The notes under the pieces were generated by a model. The model saw only the letters and a program-made list of their open reading frames with translations, searched no databases and had not been told where the DNA came from. This document shows, piece by piece, positions 11,675 through 36,096 of a stretch of DNA of 64,000 bases. Source of the stretch: Methylophilaceae bacterium LSUCC0665 (lineage in GTDB: Bacteria; Pseudomonadota; Gammaproteobacteria; Burkholderiales; Methylophilaceae). Where the stretch lies: the NCBI GenBank assembly GCA_024919215.1, contig CP103437.1, positions 434,001 through 498,000 on the forward strand, in the 5' to 3' direction. A program made the translations under genes and the position numbers. Numbering within the stretch: the stretch's first letter is position 1; each line of letters begins with the position of its first letter.

Positions 11675-13108
11675 ATGCGATCTAAAATAAACATTGTCTG
11701 GTTAAAACGTGACCTAAGGTTACAAGATCATGAGCCACTCTATAAAGCACAACAAGAAAATATTCCTTTTATCCTTCTTTATATATATGAGCCATCATTA
11801 ATTACAGATCCTCACTATGACCAACGACACTGGCGATTTATACAAGAATCTTTAGAGGATATTCAAGCAGAGTTACAAAAAAATAAAAATAATCTCTCAA
11901 TCGCTTATGGCGAATCCGTCGATGTTTTTGCTAAATTATCTAAACTTTTTGATATTCAATATGTGTTTAGCCATGAGGAAACAGGACTGGACGTTACTTT
12001 CAAAAGAGATAAAAATGTAGCTATTTATTTTAAGAGTCAAAATATCATCTGGATAGAGTGTCAATCTAATGCCGTTATAAGAGGTCTTCAGGATAGGAAG
12101 ACCTGGGATAGGGCCTGGGCAAGATTTATGCGCGATCAGATTATTAAAATCAACATGGATCATTTAAATATAATTAGTGTCGACTTAGGTGGGGTCAATA
12201 TCCCATTGTTTGAGAGGGATGATAATTTTCAAAAAGGCGGGATGACTGAGGTACAAGCCACTCTTGATGATTTTTTTTCAATCCGCGGTCAGGACTATTA
12301 TAAGTTTATTTCAAAGCCACATAGAAGCAGAAGTAGTTGCTCCAGAATGTCTGCATATATTGCGTACGGAAACATCAGTATTCGTCAAATATATCAAAAA
12401 ATCTTAGAGAATTGGAATCGAGCGGGATGGAGAAGATCGATGGCTGCATTGTCTTCAAGAATTCATTGGCATTGTCATTTTATACAAAAGTTTGAGAGCG
12501 AGTGCCGTATTGAAAATGAAACAATTAATGCAGGTTATCAAAACTTCCCATACCTTATAGAAGACGAGGAGCATGCGGACTTTAACTCTTGGGTTAATGG
12601 AAATACTGGTTTCCCCCTCATTGATGCGTCAATGAGAGCTTTAAAACATTCTGGCTACATCAACTTTAGAAGTCGAGCGATGGTAGTGAGTTTTGCATGT
12701 CATTATTTAAGAATTCATTGGAAATTGGTGGCCAAAGCTCTAGCGCGTCTCTTCCTTGATTTTGAACCAGGCATTCACTACTCACAAATTCAAATGCAGG
12801 CAGGCGTAACTGGGATTAATACGATACGTATATACAATCCAAAAAAACAGGCCATTGATCACGATCCAGAAGCGATATTTATTAAAACATGGATCCCTGA
12901 ACTCTCTTCGCATCAGCCTGAATATGTTATCAATTTACCTCTACAATCAAATGATTTATTTGCAACTCAATCTAATTACCCTCAAGCTAAATATAATTTT
13001 CAAGAACGTATTAGAGAATCCAAAGATTTGCTGTGGCAGTGGAAAAAAAGTATTCATGTTAAACAAAATAATGCAAAAATTTTAGCAAAACATGTCAGAC
13101 CACAATAA
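11675..13108 (+). CDS. Cryptochrome/DNA photolyase family protein
   Basis: This 477-residue flavoprotein has an N-terminal antenna Rossmann domain (INIVWLKRDLRLQDHEPL) and a C-terminal helical FAD domain. Sequences such as IHWHCHFIQKFE, GFPLIDASMRAL and QAGVTGINTIRIYNP give the FAD-binding core. The MQAGVTGINTIRIYNPKKQ form differs from E. coli PhrB and resembles the proteobacterial cryptochrome-like branch. The likely role is light-driven repair of UV dimers, useful in sunlit water, but a photoreceptor role is possible. An intrinsic terminator follows the stop. Confidence 0.9.
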   Translation: MRSKINIVWLKRDLRLQDHEPLYKAQQENIPFILLYIYEPSLITDPHYDQRHWRFIQESLEDIQAELQKNKNNLSIAYGESVDVFAKLSKLFDIQYVFSHEETGLDVTFKRDKNVAIYFKSQNIIWIECQSNAVIRGLQDRKTWDRAWARFMRDQIIKINMDHLNIISVDLGGVNIPLFERDDNFQKGGMTEVQATLDDFFSIRGQDYYKFISKPHRSRSSCSRMSAYIAYGNISIRQIYQKILENWNRAGWRRSMAALSSRIHWHCHFIQKFESECRIENETINAGYQNFPYLIEDEEHADFNSWVNGNTGFPLIDASMRALKHSGYINFRSRAMVVSFACHYLRIHWKLVAKALARLFLDFEPGIHYSQIQMQAGVTGINTIRIYNPKKQAIDHDPEAIFIKTWIPELSSHQPEYVINLPLQSNDLFATQSNYPQAKYNFQERIRESKDLLWQWKKSIHVKQNNAKILAKHVRPQ

Positions 13109-13134
13109 AAAAAGGACCAGCAGGTCCTTTTTTT
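13107..13134. terminator. Bidirectional intrinsic terminator
   Basis: AAAAGGACC pairs with GGTCCTTTT around a 4-base AGCA loop, with an A-run before and a T-run after. It sits between the photolyase gene (plus) and the secreted charged protein gene (minus) and can serve both. Confidence 0.85.
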
Positions 13135-13152
13135 ATAGATCAATAAATCAAA

Positions 13153-13455
13153 TTATTTTTTTGGATAGTATTTAGTTGGATCTTCGTACTCAATTTTTTT
13201 TGGCTCTTCAGCAGGCTTTTCTTTTTCTGCTTTTGCTTCACCTTCTTTTGCATCGCCGTGGTCATGATCACCATGGTTATCTGCAACTAAAAAGCCTCTT
13301 TCAGCTTTATCTTTATCGCCTTCTTTTTCGTCACCAGCTACAAAAAAGCCTCTTTCAGCTTTATCTTTGTCATCTTTAGTATCAGTTTCAACCGCTGCAA
13401 AAGCGGATAAGGATAATGCTGATGCAACTAGGGCTGCAAGTAGTTTTGAATACAT
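13153..13455 (-). CDS. Small secreted charged repeat protein, His/Asp-rich
   Basis: This 100-residue protein has a clear signal peptide (cleavage after AFA, about residue 20). The mature chain is extremely charged: two copies of DKDKAERGF(F/L)VA about 18 residues apart, a HGDHDHGD segment, then a Lys/Glu/Pro tail ending YYPKK. The His/Asp cluster could bind metal, but this is inference. No family is recognised. The start lies in a 220-bp gap shared with a divergent small gene. Confidence 0.65.
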   Translation of the reverse strand: MYSKLLAALVASALSLSAFAAVETDTKDDKDKAERGFFVAGDEKEGDKDKAERGFLVADNHGDHDHGDAKEGEAKAEKEKPAEEPKKIEYEDPTKYYPKK

Positions 13456-13675
13456 ATCTAACCTTTCATCATTTAAAAGTTTTAAAGATTAACAGATTGA
13501 TACAACAATGCAATGTTCAATTTTTTTTAGATTCTGAATCTTTTTGTAAATTTATATGCCACAAAACTGTGCAATGAATCAAATTAGTTAAATAGAATTT
13601 TTAATAAAATCAATAACTTAAAAATATTTAGTGCTGGTACAAAAATTGCATTAGTTAGATTAAAGGAGAAATAAA

Positions 13676-30687: not shown

Positions 30688-31215
30688 TTACGAATCTTCA
30701 CCGATATCATAGATTTCGATTTCTCTTTCCATAATCTCACCAGTTACACCATTGATTTCAATCTCAACTTCATGACCAATTTTTTCTGAGTAGATATCAA
30801 ATTCATACACTGGAAGATCGCCTTCAAAAGCATACTCTCTCTCAGTCACTTTGCCTGGGGTATTTTCTAAAGCAATTTTTTCAGCCTCTTCAGCTGAAAT
30901 TTTCACTGCTGAGGTAAATTTCTTATCATCCTTAGCTACTTCCACTTCTTCATCAGCTAGCTCGCCAGTAGCAACATTGCATTCAATTTCGAGTTCTTTA
31001 CCATCTTTTGTTTTGATATCAAATTCATAAATTGCCTGTCCATCTTCCACTTCACGTTCTAGGGAAACGATATGACCTTCATACTTTTTGTGAGCTGCGA
31101 TAAAACATTTATCTAAATCTGAGGTAAGTACTTTTTTAATATCATCTTCTGTGTGTGCGGCAAAAGTGTTCATAGAAAAACCTGCAACAGAAAGGGCTAA
31201 AATAATTTTTTTCAT
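30688..31215 (-). CDS. Secreted acidic protein with two PepSY domains (lanpepsy-like candidate)
   Basis: This 175-residue protein has a signal peptide (residues 1-19, cleavage after TFA). Two PepSY repeats follow. The first is around YEGHIVSLEREVEDGQAIYE to the ATGELADEE segment. The second is around NTPGKVTEREYAFEGDLPVYE to GVTGEIMEREIEI. The mature chain is strongly acidic, with Glu/Asp clusters at the repeat ends that could bind metal. Size and two-domain build resemble lanpepsy, a periplasmic lanthanide-binding protein I recall from Methylobacillus flagellatus. It is divergent from a TonB-dependent receptor. The lanthanide link is inference; generic PepSY function is the safe call. Confidence 0.8.
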   Translation of the reverse strand: MKKIILALSVAGFSMNTFAAHTEDDIKKVLTSDLDKCFIAAHKKYEGHIVSLEREVEDGQAIYEFDIKTKDGKELEIECNVATGELADEEVEVAKDDKKFTSAVKISAEEAEKIALENTPGKVTEREYAFEGDLPVYEFDIYSEKIGHEVEIEINGVTGEIMEREIEIYDIGEDS

Positions 31216-31287
31216 TAGTATTCCAAAATATTTATTAATAACCCTTTAATGAGCAGTTTGGGTGAGATAAGTTCTAAAAGATCTTAC

Positions 31288-31407
31288 TTAAAAGAAGATT
31301 TTGTATATAGAGGTGCTAAAAGCCAGATAAATTGTAAGAAACAAAAATAATCCGATCAGTGTTGTGAGAACAAATAATACATCTTCTTTTAATTTGCCTT
31401 TATTCAT
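31288..31407 (-). CDS. Possible short membrane protein (39 aa)
   Basis: This 39-residue minus-strand frame upstream of the PepSY gene begins MNKGKLKEDVLFVLTTLIG. It has one long hydrophobic helix (about 11-30) and ends SIYKIFF. The charged N-terminus plus a single helix looks real, but there is no good ribosome site, so support is limited. It would precede the PepSY gene on the same strand and could be part of the same transcript. Confidence 0.4.
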   Translation of the reverse strand: MNKGKLKEDVLFVLTTLIGLFLFLTIYLAFSTSIYKIFF

Positions 31408-31437
31408 ATTGAATATATTTATTTTTGATTGACTGAA

Positions 31438-31528
31438 TATCAATAGGAAAATTTCCTGAATACCTAATTAATAGTAATTTCAGGAAAAATTCCCAAAATT
31501 CTAAAAAAAGGAAGAATTCCTATTGATA
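31438..31528. promoter_or_regulatory. Cluster of three dyad elements upstream of the TonB receptor
   Basis: Three near-identical 11-bp dyads occur at 31446-31456 (GGAAAATTTCC), 31483-31493 (GGAAAAATTCC) and 31510-31520 (GGAAGAATTCC), consensus GGAARAWTTCC. The outer two sit in a 20-bp inverted repeat matching at 17 positions (31438-31457 with 31509-31528). A 9-bp inverted pair (31452-31460 with 31479-31487) links the first two. They lie 62-136 bp before the receptor ATG in the divergent intergenic region, a natural place for operators. Confidence 0.65.
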
Positions 31529-31581
31529 ACAAAATTGCATCAATTAAAATCATGGTTCAATTAATTTTTTAAGTATTAGAT

Positions 31582-34152
31582 ATGAAGTTAAGATTGTCAC
31601 TATTTGGATTAATGTCTGTTGCGCTAACAGTCAATGCAGAGGATCTGCAGACAGGTAAAATTAATGTGTTTAGCCCAGGACCATTGCCATCTATTGGTAT
31701 TAGTCAGGATATCGTTCCAGGATCAATCCAGGTTATCAAGCCTCAGGATGTGCAAGACCAGTCTGGTGTTTCACTCGCAGACTATCTTAACAATAATACA
31801 CAAGGCATCTCTTTTAATGAGGTTGGTGGAAACCCATGGCAGCCTGAAATATTTTTTAGAGGATATTCTGCTGGCTCCATTACCGGGAATCCACAAGGTT
31901 TGTCTATTTTTGTAGATGGTGTGCGAGAAAATCAACCTTTCAGTGATGTGGTTTTATGGGATACGATCCCGACCTGGGCATTAGCTGGCACTCAAGTTGT
32001 TGCTGGCTCGAATCCAATCTATGGACTTAATACCCTGGGTGGTGCGATTGCCATGCAGACAAAAAATGGTAAGTTATTTAATCAGGGCCGAATAGAAGGC
32101 ACAGTTGGCTCATGGGACCGTACCGCCGGTTTAATTGAATACGGTGGAATTATTGAGGGTACCAATGTAGATTACTATTTTGGCTACAAACATAGCTCAG
32201 AACATGGTTGGCGTGATCATACCCCATCTCATTTAAATCAAGCATTTGGTAAGATTGGGAATGACTTTGAAAATGGTCGTATTGAACTGAGTTACACCGG
32301 AGCCTCAAATAACTTAATCGGTAACGGCTTAGCACCTAGATATTTACTTGGCGCAGATAACGAAGGTGTGAATACGGTACCAGATCTAACAGAGAACAGA
32401 TACCATAAATTAAACTTAACTCTCACTCAATTTATTTCAGATACCGCAATGTTGTCTGCTAATGCATATTACCGCTCATCAAATCGATACACTTTAAATG
32501 GTGATGCGGAGATTGAATGGAATGCAGGTAATATCTCTAATTTAGGTCAGGTTGTCACTGGAACAGATAGATATATTCATACCTATAGCCCATATGCTAT
32601 TGATAGTGTTGAAGGGGAGACAAGAACAACCAAAACTAAGCAAGATGCGTATGGTATTTCAGCACAGTTATCATTATCTGATGATTTGATGGGTTATCAG
32701 AATCATTTTGTAACTGGCGTAAACATTGAAACATCACTAGTGAGTTTTGTACAAAATGAGTATGAGGGATCTACGATTTTATCTGGTCGTGTGATCGATA
32801 CTAATACTGGTGAATATGAAAATAATACAGACCTCCAGGGAAGAACAGATACTTTTGGGCTTTATGCCGTTGATACATTATCTTTAAATGAAAGATGGCA
32901 CGTTACAGGTGGTTTAAGATACAACTACACAAAAGTTGATAACAAGGATCGAAGAGCTGATCAAAGTGCTGGATCTTTAACTGAAGAACAAAGTTGGGGC
33001 CGAATTAACCCAACTATTGGGGTTACTTTCAAACCAAGTGATAGATATTCAACTTATTGGTCATACAGTGAATCGAATAGAGCTCCTACATCGATTGAAC
33101 TTGGCTGCTCCAACCCCGCACTTGCATGTTCCTTACCAACTCAAATGGCAGACGATCCACCATTAGATGATGTGGTTTCTAAAACTTATGAAGTAGGGGC
33201 TCGTGGTAATTTTTCAAAAGAATTCAATTGGAACGCAGCTATTTATCATGCGATGAACCACGATGACCTAATGTTCGTAAGTAATAATGCTCAAAATGGT
33301 TTAGGTTATTTCGATAATGTTGGCAGAACACGTCGTGATGGACTTGATCTCGGTTTTGGTGGAGAAACACTTTTCGGCCTAAGTAATACAGAAAAATTTT
33401 CATGGAATGCATCCTATGGGTATGTAAATGCAACCTATGATTCAGATCTTGAACTTACATCTGATGCAAACTCAAGCAGAACTCGCTCATCAACATCGTT
33501 CAATACTTATGATGATGATCAGTTAATAGATAGTGATGACTCTGAAGCAACTGAGTTGCTAGAAGGATTGTGGGATACATATAAAAATACATGGGCAACA
33601 GATGAAAGCCTTGCTTTACTTGGTGTAGGCAATGAAATTGATGCTGAAGACTCTTCCACAAATATCTTAACTACAACGAATGAAACTGTTGCAGATTTTT
33701 CAGAGTGGGTAGAGGATAATATTGGCATTGCTACAGATAAAATAAATGTTAGAAAGGGTGATCAGCTTGCAAACCTTCCTCAACATCGTCTCAAATTTAG
33801 ACTAAATTACGACTACAGTTCTGACTTTAGGTTAGGTTTAACAGCTCTTGGTTATGGTAAAGCCTACCTAATGGGTAATGAAAATCAAAAACATAATGGT
33901 GATGGTGAAACATCCGGATATATGATTTTTAATGCGGATGCGCATTGGTCACCAGCTAAAAATTGGTTAGTGAGCCTGAAAGCCATTAACTTATTTGATA
34001 AAGATTATTATTCAGGTGGACGCCTATTAATGAATGGATTTACTGGAGTTGATACAGGCACTCGCTCAGGAGCTGATGCATTCCGAGGCCCTGGATTTGT
34101 TCCAGGATCACCTCAGGCTGCTTGGATTACGCTTTCATATCAGTTTAAATAA
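31582..34152 (+). CDS. TonB-dependent outer-membrane receptor
   Basis: This 856-residue receptor has a signal peptide (residues 1-19), a plug domain and a 22-strand barrel. The plug includes IQVIKPQDVQDQSGVSLADYL and the FRGYSAGSITGNPQGLSIFVDG segment (about 90-112). TonB-boxes such as INVFSPG lie near residue 28. The barrel ends in the aromatic WITLSYQFK, the usual BamA signal. Substrate cannot be read directly. With PepSY and two-component neighbours, a lanthanide or other metal-chelate receptor (LanA/LutH-like) is my favoured inference. A long Asp/Ser-rich extracellular loop (about 640-730) is notable. A terminator follows. Confidence 0.9.
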   Translation: MKLRLSLFGLMSVALTVNAEDLQTGKINVFSPGPLPSIGISQDIVPGSIQVIKPQDVQDQSGVSLADYLNNNTQGISFNEVGGNPWQPEIFFRGYSAGSITGNPQGLSIFVDGVRENQPFSDVVLWDTIPTWALAGTQVVAGSNPIYGLNTLGGAIAMQTKNGKLFNQGRIEGTVGSWDRTAGLIEYGGIIEGTNVDYYFGYKHSSEHGWRDHTPSHLNQAFGKIGNDFENGRIELSYTGASNNLIGNGLAPRYLLGADNEGVNTVPDLTENRYHKLNLTLTQFISDTAMLSANAYYRSSNRYTLNGDAEIEWNAGNISNLGQVVTGTDRYIHTYSPYAIDSVEGETRTTKTKQDAYGISAQLSLSDDLMGYQNHFVTGVNIETSLVSFVQNEYEGSTILSGRVIDTNTGEYENNTDLQGRTDTFGLYAVDTLSLNERWHVTGGLRYNYTKVDNKDRRADQSAGSLTEEQSWGRINPTIGVTFKPSDRYSTYWSYSESNRAPTSIELGCSNPALACSLPTQMADDPPLDDVVSKTYEVGARGNFSKEFNWNAAIYHAMNHDDLMFVSNNAQNGLGYFDNVGRTRRDGLDLGFGGETLFGLSNTEKFSWNASYGYVNATYDSDLELTSDANSSRTRSSTSFNTYDDDQLIDSDDSEATELLEGLWDTYKNTWATDESLALLGVGNEIDAEDSSTNILTTTNETVADFSEWVEDNIGIATDKINVRKGDQLANLPQHRLKFRLNYDYSSDFRLGLTALGYGKAYLMGNENQKHNGDGETSGYMIFNADAHWSPAKNWLVSLKAINLFDKDYYSGGRLLMNGFTGVDTGTRSGADAFRGPGFVPGSPQAAWITLSYQFK

Positions 34153-34177
34153 AAAAAGGGCATTAGCCCTTTTTTTT
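34151..34177 (+). terminator. Intrinsic terminator after the TonB receptor gene
   Basis: AAAAAAGGGC and GCCCTTTTTT pair around an ATTA loop, followed by more T. It begins at the receptor stop codon and separates the receptor from the sensor kinase gene, whose ATG is 22 bases past it. The kinase therefore either needs its own promoter or depends on read-through. Confidence 0.8.
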
Positions 34178-34198
34178 CGCCTAGAGTAAAATCAATTT

Positions 34199-35500
34199 AT
34201 GAGTTTAAAGCTAAGATTAATTTTAATTGTTAACTTTCTTTTATTTGTTGCCATCTTTATTGGTTTCTTCTCTGTTGTCTTTACCTCAAAAAATGCAGTT
34301 AGGTCTGAAATTGAGTCTTCACTCAAGCTTGCAGAATTCTCTATTAAAACAGGCATTCAAAAAAATCCTGATCTATATCTTTTTCAAGATAATCTATTAG
34401 GTCTCAAAGATTTAGATCTGATTCGTCACCTATCAATTCAGTTATTAGATAGCGATGGAAATATCATTGATCAAAATAAAAAATCAAATACAGAAGTTCA
34501 TATTCCTGTGTGGTTTCAAAATGCATTAGATATTTATTCTAAAGATCTTGAAATTTTAGACTTTCCTTTAATGCAGTATGGGGATCAGATTGGAGCGGTA
34601 AAAGTGATTCCCAATCCAATCTATGAGTATGACGAGATATGGCAGCAATTTAAAAATGGATTAATTATTGCTATGCTATTTTTTGTGTTTGTAAATTTTT
34701 CTATTTTCTTTTTATTTGGAAAAATTATTTCACCCATTAATCTTCTCATCCAAGGATTTAGAAATTTAGAACAAGGAAAATATAAAAATAATAAAGAAAA
34801 CTTTGGTATATCTGAACTAGATATATTGAGAGTGAAATTGAATCAATTGACTATTAAATTAAAAAATAATGATGAAAGAATACATGAGCTCAATCAGAAG
34901 TTAATCTCTATCCAAGAGCAAGAAAAAAAGGAAATCTCTCGAGACTTGCATGATGAAATTGGTCAGTCATTAGCAGCGATTCAGGTTCAGGCTGCGGCAA
35001 TTAAAACTTCAAGAAAAGCTAATGCACAGGCAGATCTGATTATTAGAACTACGAAAGACTTAATGCATCAAACACGCAATCTTATAAAGCGTTTAAGTTT
35101 GAGCATTATCGATGATCTTGGCATTGAGGATGCATTAATTGACCTCATAAAAAATTGGTCACGAAGAACTCCTTGTAAGAATATTAATGCGAATGTCGAC
35201 TTACCTGACTCAAAGATATTTAAATTTCAATTGAATGAAACAGTTTATAGATTGACTCAAGAGGCATTAACAAATATGTCAAAACACTCTCGACCAAAAG
35301 AAGTATTAATTTCAGTCCAGAGAAATGGCAATGTAATTCATTTAAGTTTTATGAATAACGGTCTATTAAAGAGAACAAAAAAAACTAGCGGTATTGGAAT
35401 TTTGGGGATGCAAGAAAGGGTGAAGAATTTATCAGGATCTTTTAAACAAAGCACTTATAAAGGGTTTTATAAAATTGAAATAGGTTTACCCATAAAATGA
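34199..35500 (+). CDS. Two-component sensor histidine kinase (HisKA_3 / NarX-type)
   Basis: This 433-residue kinase has transmembrane helices at about 7-28 and 153-173 flanking a periplasmic sensor of about 120 residues. HAMP-like sequence (KIISPINLLIQGF) and a coiled coil follow. The dimerisation helix carries the phospho-accepting His in KEISRDLHDEIGQSLAAIQ (near 250), and the HATPase domain has NxxKHS (NMSKHSRPKE) and GIGILGMQERV. This build pairs with LuxR-type regulators. The stop overlaps the regulator ATG by 4 bases. Proximity to the receptor and PepSY genes suggests it senses the same substrate, but that is unproven. Confidence 0.92.
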   Translation: MSLKLRLILIVNFLLFVAIFIGFFSVVFTSKNAVRSEIESSLKLAEFSIKTGIQKNPDLYLFQDNLLGLKDLDLIRHLSIQLLDSDGNIIDQNKKSNTEVHIPVWFQNALDIYSKDLEILDFPLMQYGDQIGAVKVIPNPIYEYDEIWQQFKNGLIIAMLFFVFVNFSIFFLFGKIISPINLLIQGFRNLEQGKYKNNKENFGISELDILRVKLNQLTIKLKNNDERIHELNQKLISIQEQEKKEISRDLHDEIGQSLAAIQVQAAAIKTSRKANAQADLIIRTTKDLMHQTRNLIKRLSLSIIDDLGIEDALIDLIKNWSRRTPCKNINANVDLPDSKIFKFQLNETVYRLTQEALTNMSKHSRPKEVLISVQRNGNVIHLSFMNNGLLKRTKKTSGIGILGMQERVKNLSGSFKQSTYKGFYKIEIGLPIK

Positions 35501-36096
35501 AGAGCTTACTCTTAGTGGATGATCATAAAATTGTTCGTTCAGGTCTCAAAACTTTATTGTCTAATTTGAATTTTGATCGGATTGATGAAGCTGACTCGGG
35601 AAAAATGGCTTATGCTTTAGCCCAGGAAAACTCCTATAGCTTGATTATCATGGATATCTCCATGGGGGGGATGAGTGGTTTAGATGCTCTATCTAAAATT
35701 ATTAATAGACTTCCCAAGCAAAAAATCTTAATTTTGAGTATGCATGACAGTGATCTTGTGATTGAAAAATCTAAAAAATTAGGTGCGATGGGCTTTGTGA
35801 CTAAGTCTGATATATCTGATAATTTATTTCAAGCTGTGGAACAGGTGCTTGCTGGCCAATATTTCTTTCCAGAAATAAAAATTTTAGATAATCGATTAAA
35901 TGAGCTTAATGAAAGAGAGTTTGAAATTTTTAAAATGATCGCTTCTGGAATGACAATAAAAAATATTGCTGCAGATATGAACATCAGTCAGAAAACTGCG
36001 GCTAATTATCAGACCAGTATCAAGCAAAAGTTAGAAATTGATAATCCAATTGAGTTTTACAAGTTAGCCGTTGAGTTAAATTTAATTAAATCCTAA
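35497..36096 (+). CDS. LuxR/NarL-type response regulator
   Basis: This 199-residue protein has an N-terminal receiver with acidic pair Asp8-Asp9, phosphorylation site Asp53 in IIMDISM and Lys103 in FVTKSD. A LuxR-type helix-turn-helix (about 135-195) follows, with LNEREFEIFKMIASGMTIKNIA as first helices and ISQKTAANYQTSIKQKL as recognition helix. It overlaps the kinase gene by 4 bases (ATGA) and must be its partner. The three dyads upstream of the TonB receptor are candidate targets, since NarL-type proteins bind short inverted repeats. Confidence 0.93.
   Translation: MKSLLLVDDHKIVRSGLKTLLSNLNFDRIDEADSGKMAYALAQENSYSLIIMDISMGGMSGLDALSKIINRLPKQKILILSMHDSDLVIEKSKKLGAMGFVTKSDISDNLFQAVEQVLAGQYFFPEIKILDNRLNELNEREFEIFKMIASGMTIKNIAADMNISQKTAANYQTSIKQKLEIDNPIEFYKLAVELNLIKS

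Follow-up and report, generated by a model that had tools for sequence, protein, structure and literature searches.

A candidate lanthanide uptake and sensing locus with an MxaY-type kinase in a minimal methylotroph genome

Several components of lanthanide biology have been described in methylotrophic bacteria. The sensor kinase MxaY of Methylotuvimicrobium buryatense is needed for the lanthanide switch and is active without La, and the regulator encoded beside it gave no phenotype (PMC5018670). In M. extorquens, the receptor gene lutH is clustered with lanmodulin and is repressed four-fold by La (PMC7391723). Lanpepsy (LanP) of Methylobacillus flagellatus was reported to have no direct tie to uptake, xoxF induction or growth under the test conditions used (review PMC11845868). 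Pelagic Methylophilaceae have been reported with XoxF4-1 only (PMC6794327). Among coastal methanol oxidisers, OM43-type bacteria are abundant, and they have a lanthanide (Ln)-type enzyme as their sole methanol dehydrogenase. Here, we describe a minimal genome in which about 5.4 kb encode an MxaY-type kinase with a matching regulator, a receptor and a candidate metal-binding protein, and also contain candidate operators.

Gene content and host genome

The window, i.e., the whole 64 kb stretch of DNA that was analysed, belongs to a single-contig genome of 1,311,651 bases (1.31 Mb) whose nearest named relatives are the OM43-type strains KB13, LSUCC0401 and LSUCC0717. An earlier note on this DNA had described a secreted PepSY protein divergent from a TonB-dependent receptor, followed by a sensor kinase and a LuxR-type regulator. 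Coordinates and Pfam domains bore out this gene content, to which we add a 39-amino-acid ORF and three operator-like palindromes that were absent from that description. The locus comprises the following features:

30688..31215, minus strand: secreted acidic two-PepSY protein, lanpepsy-type (Pfam PepSY, family profile)
31288..31407, minus strand: conserved 39-aa ORF, predicted to span the membrane once (conservation, codon-position differences)
31445..31457, no strand: palindrome AGGAAAATTTCCT, candidate regulator site 1 (motif conservation)
31482..31494, no strand: palindrome AGGAAAAATTCCC, candidate regulator site 2 (motif conservation)
31509..31521, no strand: palindrome AGGAAGAATTCCT, candidate regulator site 3 (motif conservation; ends 1 bp before the -35)
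31523..31550, plus strand: promoter-like TTGATA-16-TAAAAT for the receptor operon (consensus match only)
31582..34152, plus strand: TonB-dependent outer-membrane receptor, 856 aa (Pfam Plug and barrel, tree, neighbourhoods)
34199..35500, plus strand: MxaY-type sensor kinase, 433 aa (LapD_MoxY_N and HisKA_3, reciprocal best hit)
35497..36096, plus strand: LuxR-type response regulator, 199 aa (Response_reg and GerE)

The PepSY and receptor genes are divergent. The kinase and regulator genes follow the receptor gene in the same direction, with a 46 bp gap between receptor and kinase and a 4 bp overlap between kinase and regulator; purT comes next. Gene order is identical in KB13, LSUCC0401 and LSUCC0717. 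Across the 120 Methylophilaceae genomes, receptor relatives (E <= 1e-30) occur in 105 and PepSY relatives (E <= 0.001) in 85, and in the 40 Methylophilaceae loci examined the receptor is flanked by tilS and purT, with extra genes intervening in larger genomes. Those larger genomes that were read in detail carry an NtrC-type regulator next to the receptor in place of the LuxR-type one, so that the regulator appears to have been exchanged at a single syntenic receptor site (L054, L057, L059, L071).

The earlier note had proposed looking for xoxF in the same genome, and it is present there: an Ln-type XoxF with a WDYDG motif is the sole methanol dehydrogenase, and neither MxaF nor any second methanol dehydrogenase was found in the host genome. 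A supply of lanthanide is thus likely to be of central importance to the cell. XoxF is accompanied by xoxJ and two xoxG-like genes, and the genome encodes one further PQQ-repeat protein of 410 codons as well as pqqC, from which we conclude that the host probably makes PQQ itself. The two tandem xoxG-like cytochromes (L004:12330-12821, 12905-13474) are near-identical over most of their length; the N-terminus of the second differs and resembles a lipoprotein signal. A tonB gene lies about 7 kb downstream of xoxF.

Relationships of the PepSY protein, kinase and receptor

The PepSY protein has 175 residues and two PepSY stretches (Pfam, E 9e-23), and its mature form, with a cut at residue 19 assumed, has a pI of 4.3 and a mass of 17.6 kDa. 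These features agree with the acidic secreted two-PepSY protein of the earlier note and with the two PepSY domains of the approximately 19 kDa exported lanpepsy. Homologues occur throughout the Methylophilaceae and share an invariant set of acidic residues. The family profile matched the chain of PDB 9vy3-9vya (E 1.4e-59), to which the window protein is 37% identical. These eight solved entries of one protein carry the generic name 'Propeptide, PepSY amd peptidase M4', and we suspect that they are a lanpepsy structure series. A fold search with the AlphaFold model (pLDDT 88) returned general PepSY-like folds only, the best being 4exr (Z 8.4, 65 residues), and 9vy3 was not among them. M. flagellatus strain L1B, a strain other than the published KT, has a single two-PepSY match, which is 40-42% identical to the window protein. 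By sequence, the window protein appears to belong to the lanpepsy-type family, and lanthanide binding is its candidate function.

In the named genomes surveyed, 17 PepSY loci contain an Ln-type PQQ dehydrogenase gene; the distance to this Ln-type xoxF is about 2 kb in 16 of them (Methylophilus and Methylotenera-type) and about 8 kb in one (L186). Other PepSY loci adjoin MxaY-type kinase-regulator pairs, in several lineages, or receptors. A Methylovulum MAG has the order receptor, PepSY, kinase, small exported-type ORF, regulator, mxaF and downstream genes including an mxaI-like one; the WDYAG motif and the mxaI-like gene identify this dehydrogenase gene as mxaF rather than xoxF. No PepSY gene was found on plasmids.

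The kinase combines a periplasmic LapD_MoxY_N domain with HisKA_3, both above the Pfam cut-off, which is the MxaY/MoxY layout. A search of the M. buryatense genome with it placed the MxaY candidate first (162 bits vs 69 for the next protein); we took the identity of this candidate from the neighbouring response regulator and Glu147, both as given in PMC5018670 (METBUDRAFT_1818). The reverse search with this candidate returned the window kinase first (163 vs 101 bits). Although the two proteins are only 27-28% identical, E146 of the window kinase aligns with MxaY E147, the residue whose change to Gly locks MxaY on. The reciprocal best hit and the retained glutamate thus mark the kinase as MxaY-type at the level of homology. 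A second, longer MxaY-like kinase of 580 codons is encoded elsewhere in the host genome (G000:C1:796689-798380).

The receptor has Pfam Plug and barrel domains and gave no match to PDB sequences at E <= 0.001. The LanA-type assignment offered by the earlier note did not hold, since no relative was found in the M. buryatense 5G genome at E <= 1e-8. That note had also named a grouping with siderophore, cobalamin or copper receptors as evidence against its reading; in our tree, the receptor instead falls in a clade apart from the host's four other receptors (support 85/91, modest), which look ZnuD-like, siderophore-type, siderophore/B12-type and weakly copper/heme-like. The neighbourhoods of other members of the receptor clade were also read. 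In Methylocaldum, mxaF is divergent from a kinase-regulator-receptor series, and on Burkholderia and Variovorax plasmids clade members lie beside Ln-type PQQ dehydrogenases and pqq genes. A distant member on plasmid pMNOD02 of Methylobacterium nodulans (L245:9755-13514) adjoins a response regulator and an EF-hand protein bearing four loops that resemble those of lanmodulin; the window receptor groups loosely with it, on a long branch and at 26% identity. The receptor was re-found in 38 Burkholderiales loci outside the Methylophilaceae; a HisKA_3 kinase is encoded close by in 22 of these, and genes for PQQ synthesis or a PQQ dehydrogenase in about 10. In six genomes of 2.4 to 5.6 Mb, only 3-8 kinase matches occur per genome, so that a chance kinase neighbour within 20 kb should be rare. 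The clade also occurs without nearby Ln-type genes, e.g., on a Caballeronia plasmid. On an Ideonella dechloratans plasmid (L242), a receptor relative with a divergent kinase-regulator pair lies a few kb from genes for methanobactin export and the copper-binding protein MbnP.

Palindromes, regulator and small ORF

Three exact AGGAA-N3-TTCCY palindromes lie within 77 bp between the divergent PepSY and receptor genes. The expectation for this motif is 0.19 matches per 64 kb window; in 100 shuffles, the observed count was never attained. All three are conserved across OM43, in four relatives. Allowing one mismatch or less, palindromes precede the receptor in 16/17 loci of the two streamlined genera with the linked LuxR-type regulator (11/12 and 5/5 when split by genus) and in 2/19 other loci, a difference with a Fisher p of 6e-7 that is to be read in the light of the genomes' relatedness. 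The sole exception among the 17, G015, has lost the receptor palindromes, and its recognition helix has changed from ANYQTSIKQK to ANKLALIKEK. Two Methylopumilus-type loci have kinase, regulator and a similar recognition helix, yet no close palindrome. The palindromes appear to be largely in step with the recognition helix, and the regulator probably binds all three. The earlier note's proposal that the two-component pair controls the receptor gains sequence support from these conserved sites, with binding and the direction of control remaining inferred.

Nine distinct exact sites occur genome-wide, and five of the six outside the locus lie inside genes. The sixth precedes what is probably the start of a second receptor gene, whose product has weak copper/heme-like hits (L313:1503, genome 1028202). 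This palindrome also precedes the orthologue in G046 and G015 (L317:1481, L326:1540), i.e., in three OM43 genomes, and G015 keeps it despite the loss at its main receptor. In LSUCC0401 and G086 (L318:1513, L324:1530), the gene preceding tonB contains a palindrome 70 bp upstream of tonB. A shared operator at xoxF was not found, and both xoxF and tonB of the host are without a close palindrome.

The promoter-like TTGATA-16-TAAAAT matches 10 of 12 consensus positions, and the last palindrome ends 1 bp before its -35. A site abutting the -35 is an arrangement typical of activators, so activation of the receptor operon by the regulator, and perhaps also of the small ORF and the PepSY gene, is the most likely outcome when lanthanide is scarce.

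The 39-aa ORF lies between the palindromes and the PepSY gene, on the PepSY strand, and is conserved in 5/5 OM43 loci with this arrangement. Its differences at codon positions 1:2:3 number 116:34:168, as expected of coding sequence, and by inspection the product resembles one membrane span. MgrB, which acts on PhoQ, is an example of a small membrane protein that adjusts a sensor kinase; by analogy, our guess is that the 39-aa protein might feed back on the kinase.

A proposed lanthanide-scavenging module and its alternatives

We think it probable that the locus is a self-controlled lanthanide-scavenging module with its own sensor. The sole xoxF, the separate receptor clade and the MxaY reciprocal best hit support the candidate lanthanide uptake-and-sensing module of the earlier note, and from them we infer that the metal is a lanthanide. 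The receptor would supply XoxF by carrying a lanthanide complex through the outer membrane, and the acidic PepSY protein would bind the metal in the periplasm as a buffer or carrier. The MxaY-type kinase would read periplasmic lanthanide status, either directly or via the PepSY protein. As M. buryatense MxaY is active in the absence of La (PMC5018670), we propose that low periplasmic lanthanide would activate the kinase and lead to phosphorylation of the LuxR-type regulator, which would then bind the three palindromes and raise the receptor. More receptor would in turn load the periplasm, the PepSY protein and XoxF with lanthanide. The four-fold repression of lutH by La (PMC7391723) fits this direction of control. 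Several observations speak against the module: the negative report on lanpepsy in M. flagellatus (PMC11845868), the low identity of the kinase to MxaY, the host's xoxF and tonB with no close palindrome, the two Methylopumilus-type loci with a similar helix but no close site, and the receptor clade members that lie away from Ln-type genes.

Other readings of the same genes were weighed against this one. The receptor might import PQQ, like E. coli PqqU, with the kinase sensing PQQ or methanol-oxidation status rather than a lanthanide. Receptor relatives do adjoin PQQ synthesis genes in several Burkholderiales, and the receptor has some similarity to the NCBIfam PqqU model, but its 52 bits fall far under the cut-off of 1200. 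Together with the host's own pqqC, the divergent pairing of the receptor with a lanpepsy-type metal-binding candidate and the lanmodulin-like gene beside a distant clade member, this makes PQQ import unlikely in our judgement. We likewise give little credence to a module for another metal such as iron or copper, in which an ordinary metallophore receptor would have its own two-component system and the PepSY protein would bind Ca or another cation. Such a module could account for the match to a general siderophore-receptor model (144 bits, below the cut-off of 223.5), the methanobactin and copper-binding genes near the Ideonella relative and the same palindrome before a second receptor with weak copper/heme-like hits. 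Against it stand the MxaY-type kinase with its signalling glutamate, the many genomes in which the PepSY family adjoins Ln-type xoxF and the receptor clade members beside Ln-type PQQ dehydrogenases.

It seems very improbable that the genes are neighbours by history only, with the pair controlling other genes and the palindromes binding an unrelated regulator. The receptor does stay between tilS and purT as the regulator next to it changes from lineage to lineage, and G015 retains the second-receptor palindrome with a changed regulator. However, the palindromes track the linked LuxR-type regulator and were lost at the receptor where the recognition helix changed, and kinase adjacency to the receptor clade recurs across Burkholderiales.

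Within the lanthanide-scavenging reading, a more speculative extension, which we regard as possible rather than probable, is that the MxaY-type pair of marine methylotrophs with XoxF alone no longer serves the choice between two methanol dehydrogenases and has instead taken over a dedicated lanthanide-starvation regulon. This regulon would contain the receptor, the PepSY protein, the 39-aa membrane protein as kinase feedback and, in some relatives, tonB and the second receptor. The individual parts of the locus are of known kinds. The literature searched, whose coverage was partial, yielded no description of their compact combination, of candidate operators with matching helix changes, of the small ORF or of an MxaY-type kinase in a cell lacking MxaF. 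Since its DNA target, kinase-regulator pair and candidate ligand are all defined, the locus would make bacterial rare-earth metal sensing directly testable.

Compared with described systems, the window receptor shares with LanA of M. buryatense the character of a TonB-dependent receptor in a methylotroph, but no M. buryatense receptor matches it at the threshold used. With PqqU (YncD), it shares a weak profile similarity and the proximity of some relatives to pqq genes, yet it scores far below the curated cut-off. The likeness to LutH-like receptors is one of gene neighbourhood: the distant M. nodulans clade member adjoins a lanmodulin-like gene, as LutH does lanmodulin; unlike for LutH, the neighbourhood read contains no ABC transporter cluster. 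The lanpepsy family, which is spread across Methylophilaceae and also occurs in Methylococcales, matches the PepSY protein in being small, secreted and acidic, with two PepSY domains and conserved acidic positions. The window protein, whose binding is putative, is nevertheless about 40% identical to L1B's only two-PepSY match, and its gene sits beside a receptor and a sensor, both of which are missing within 10 kb of the L1B gene. MxaY differs from the window kinase in its genetic setting: the latter is linked to a receptor, is 28% identical and resides in a host without MxaF, hence with no pair of methanol dehydrogenases to switch between. The two kinases nevertheless share a reciprocal best hit, the same domain layout, the conserved glutamate and an adjacent regulator gene.
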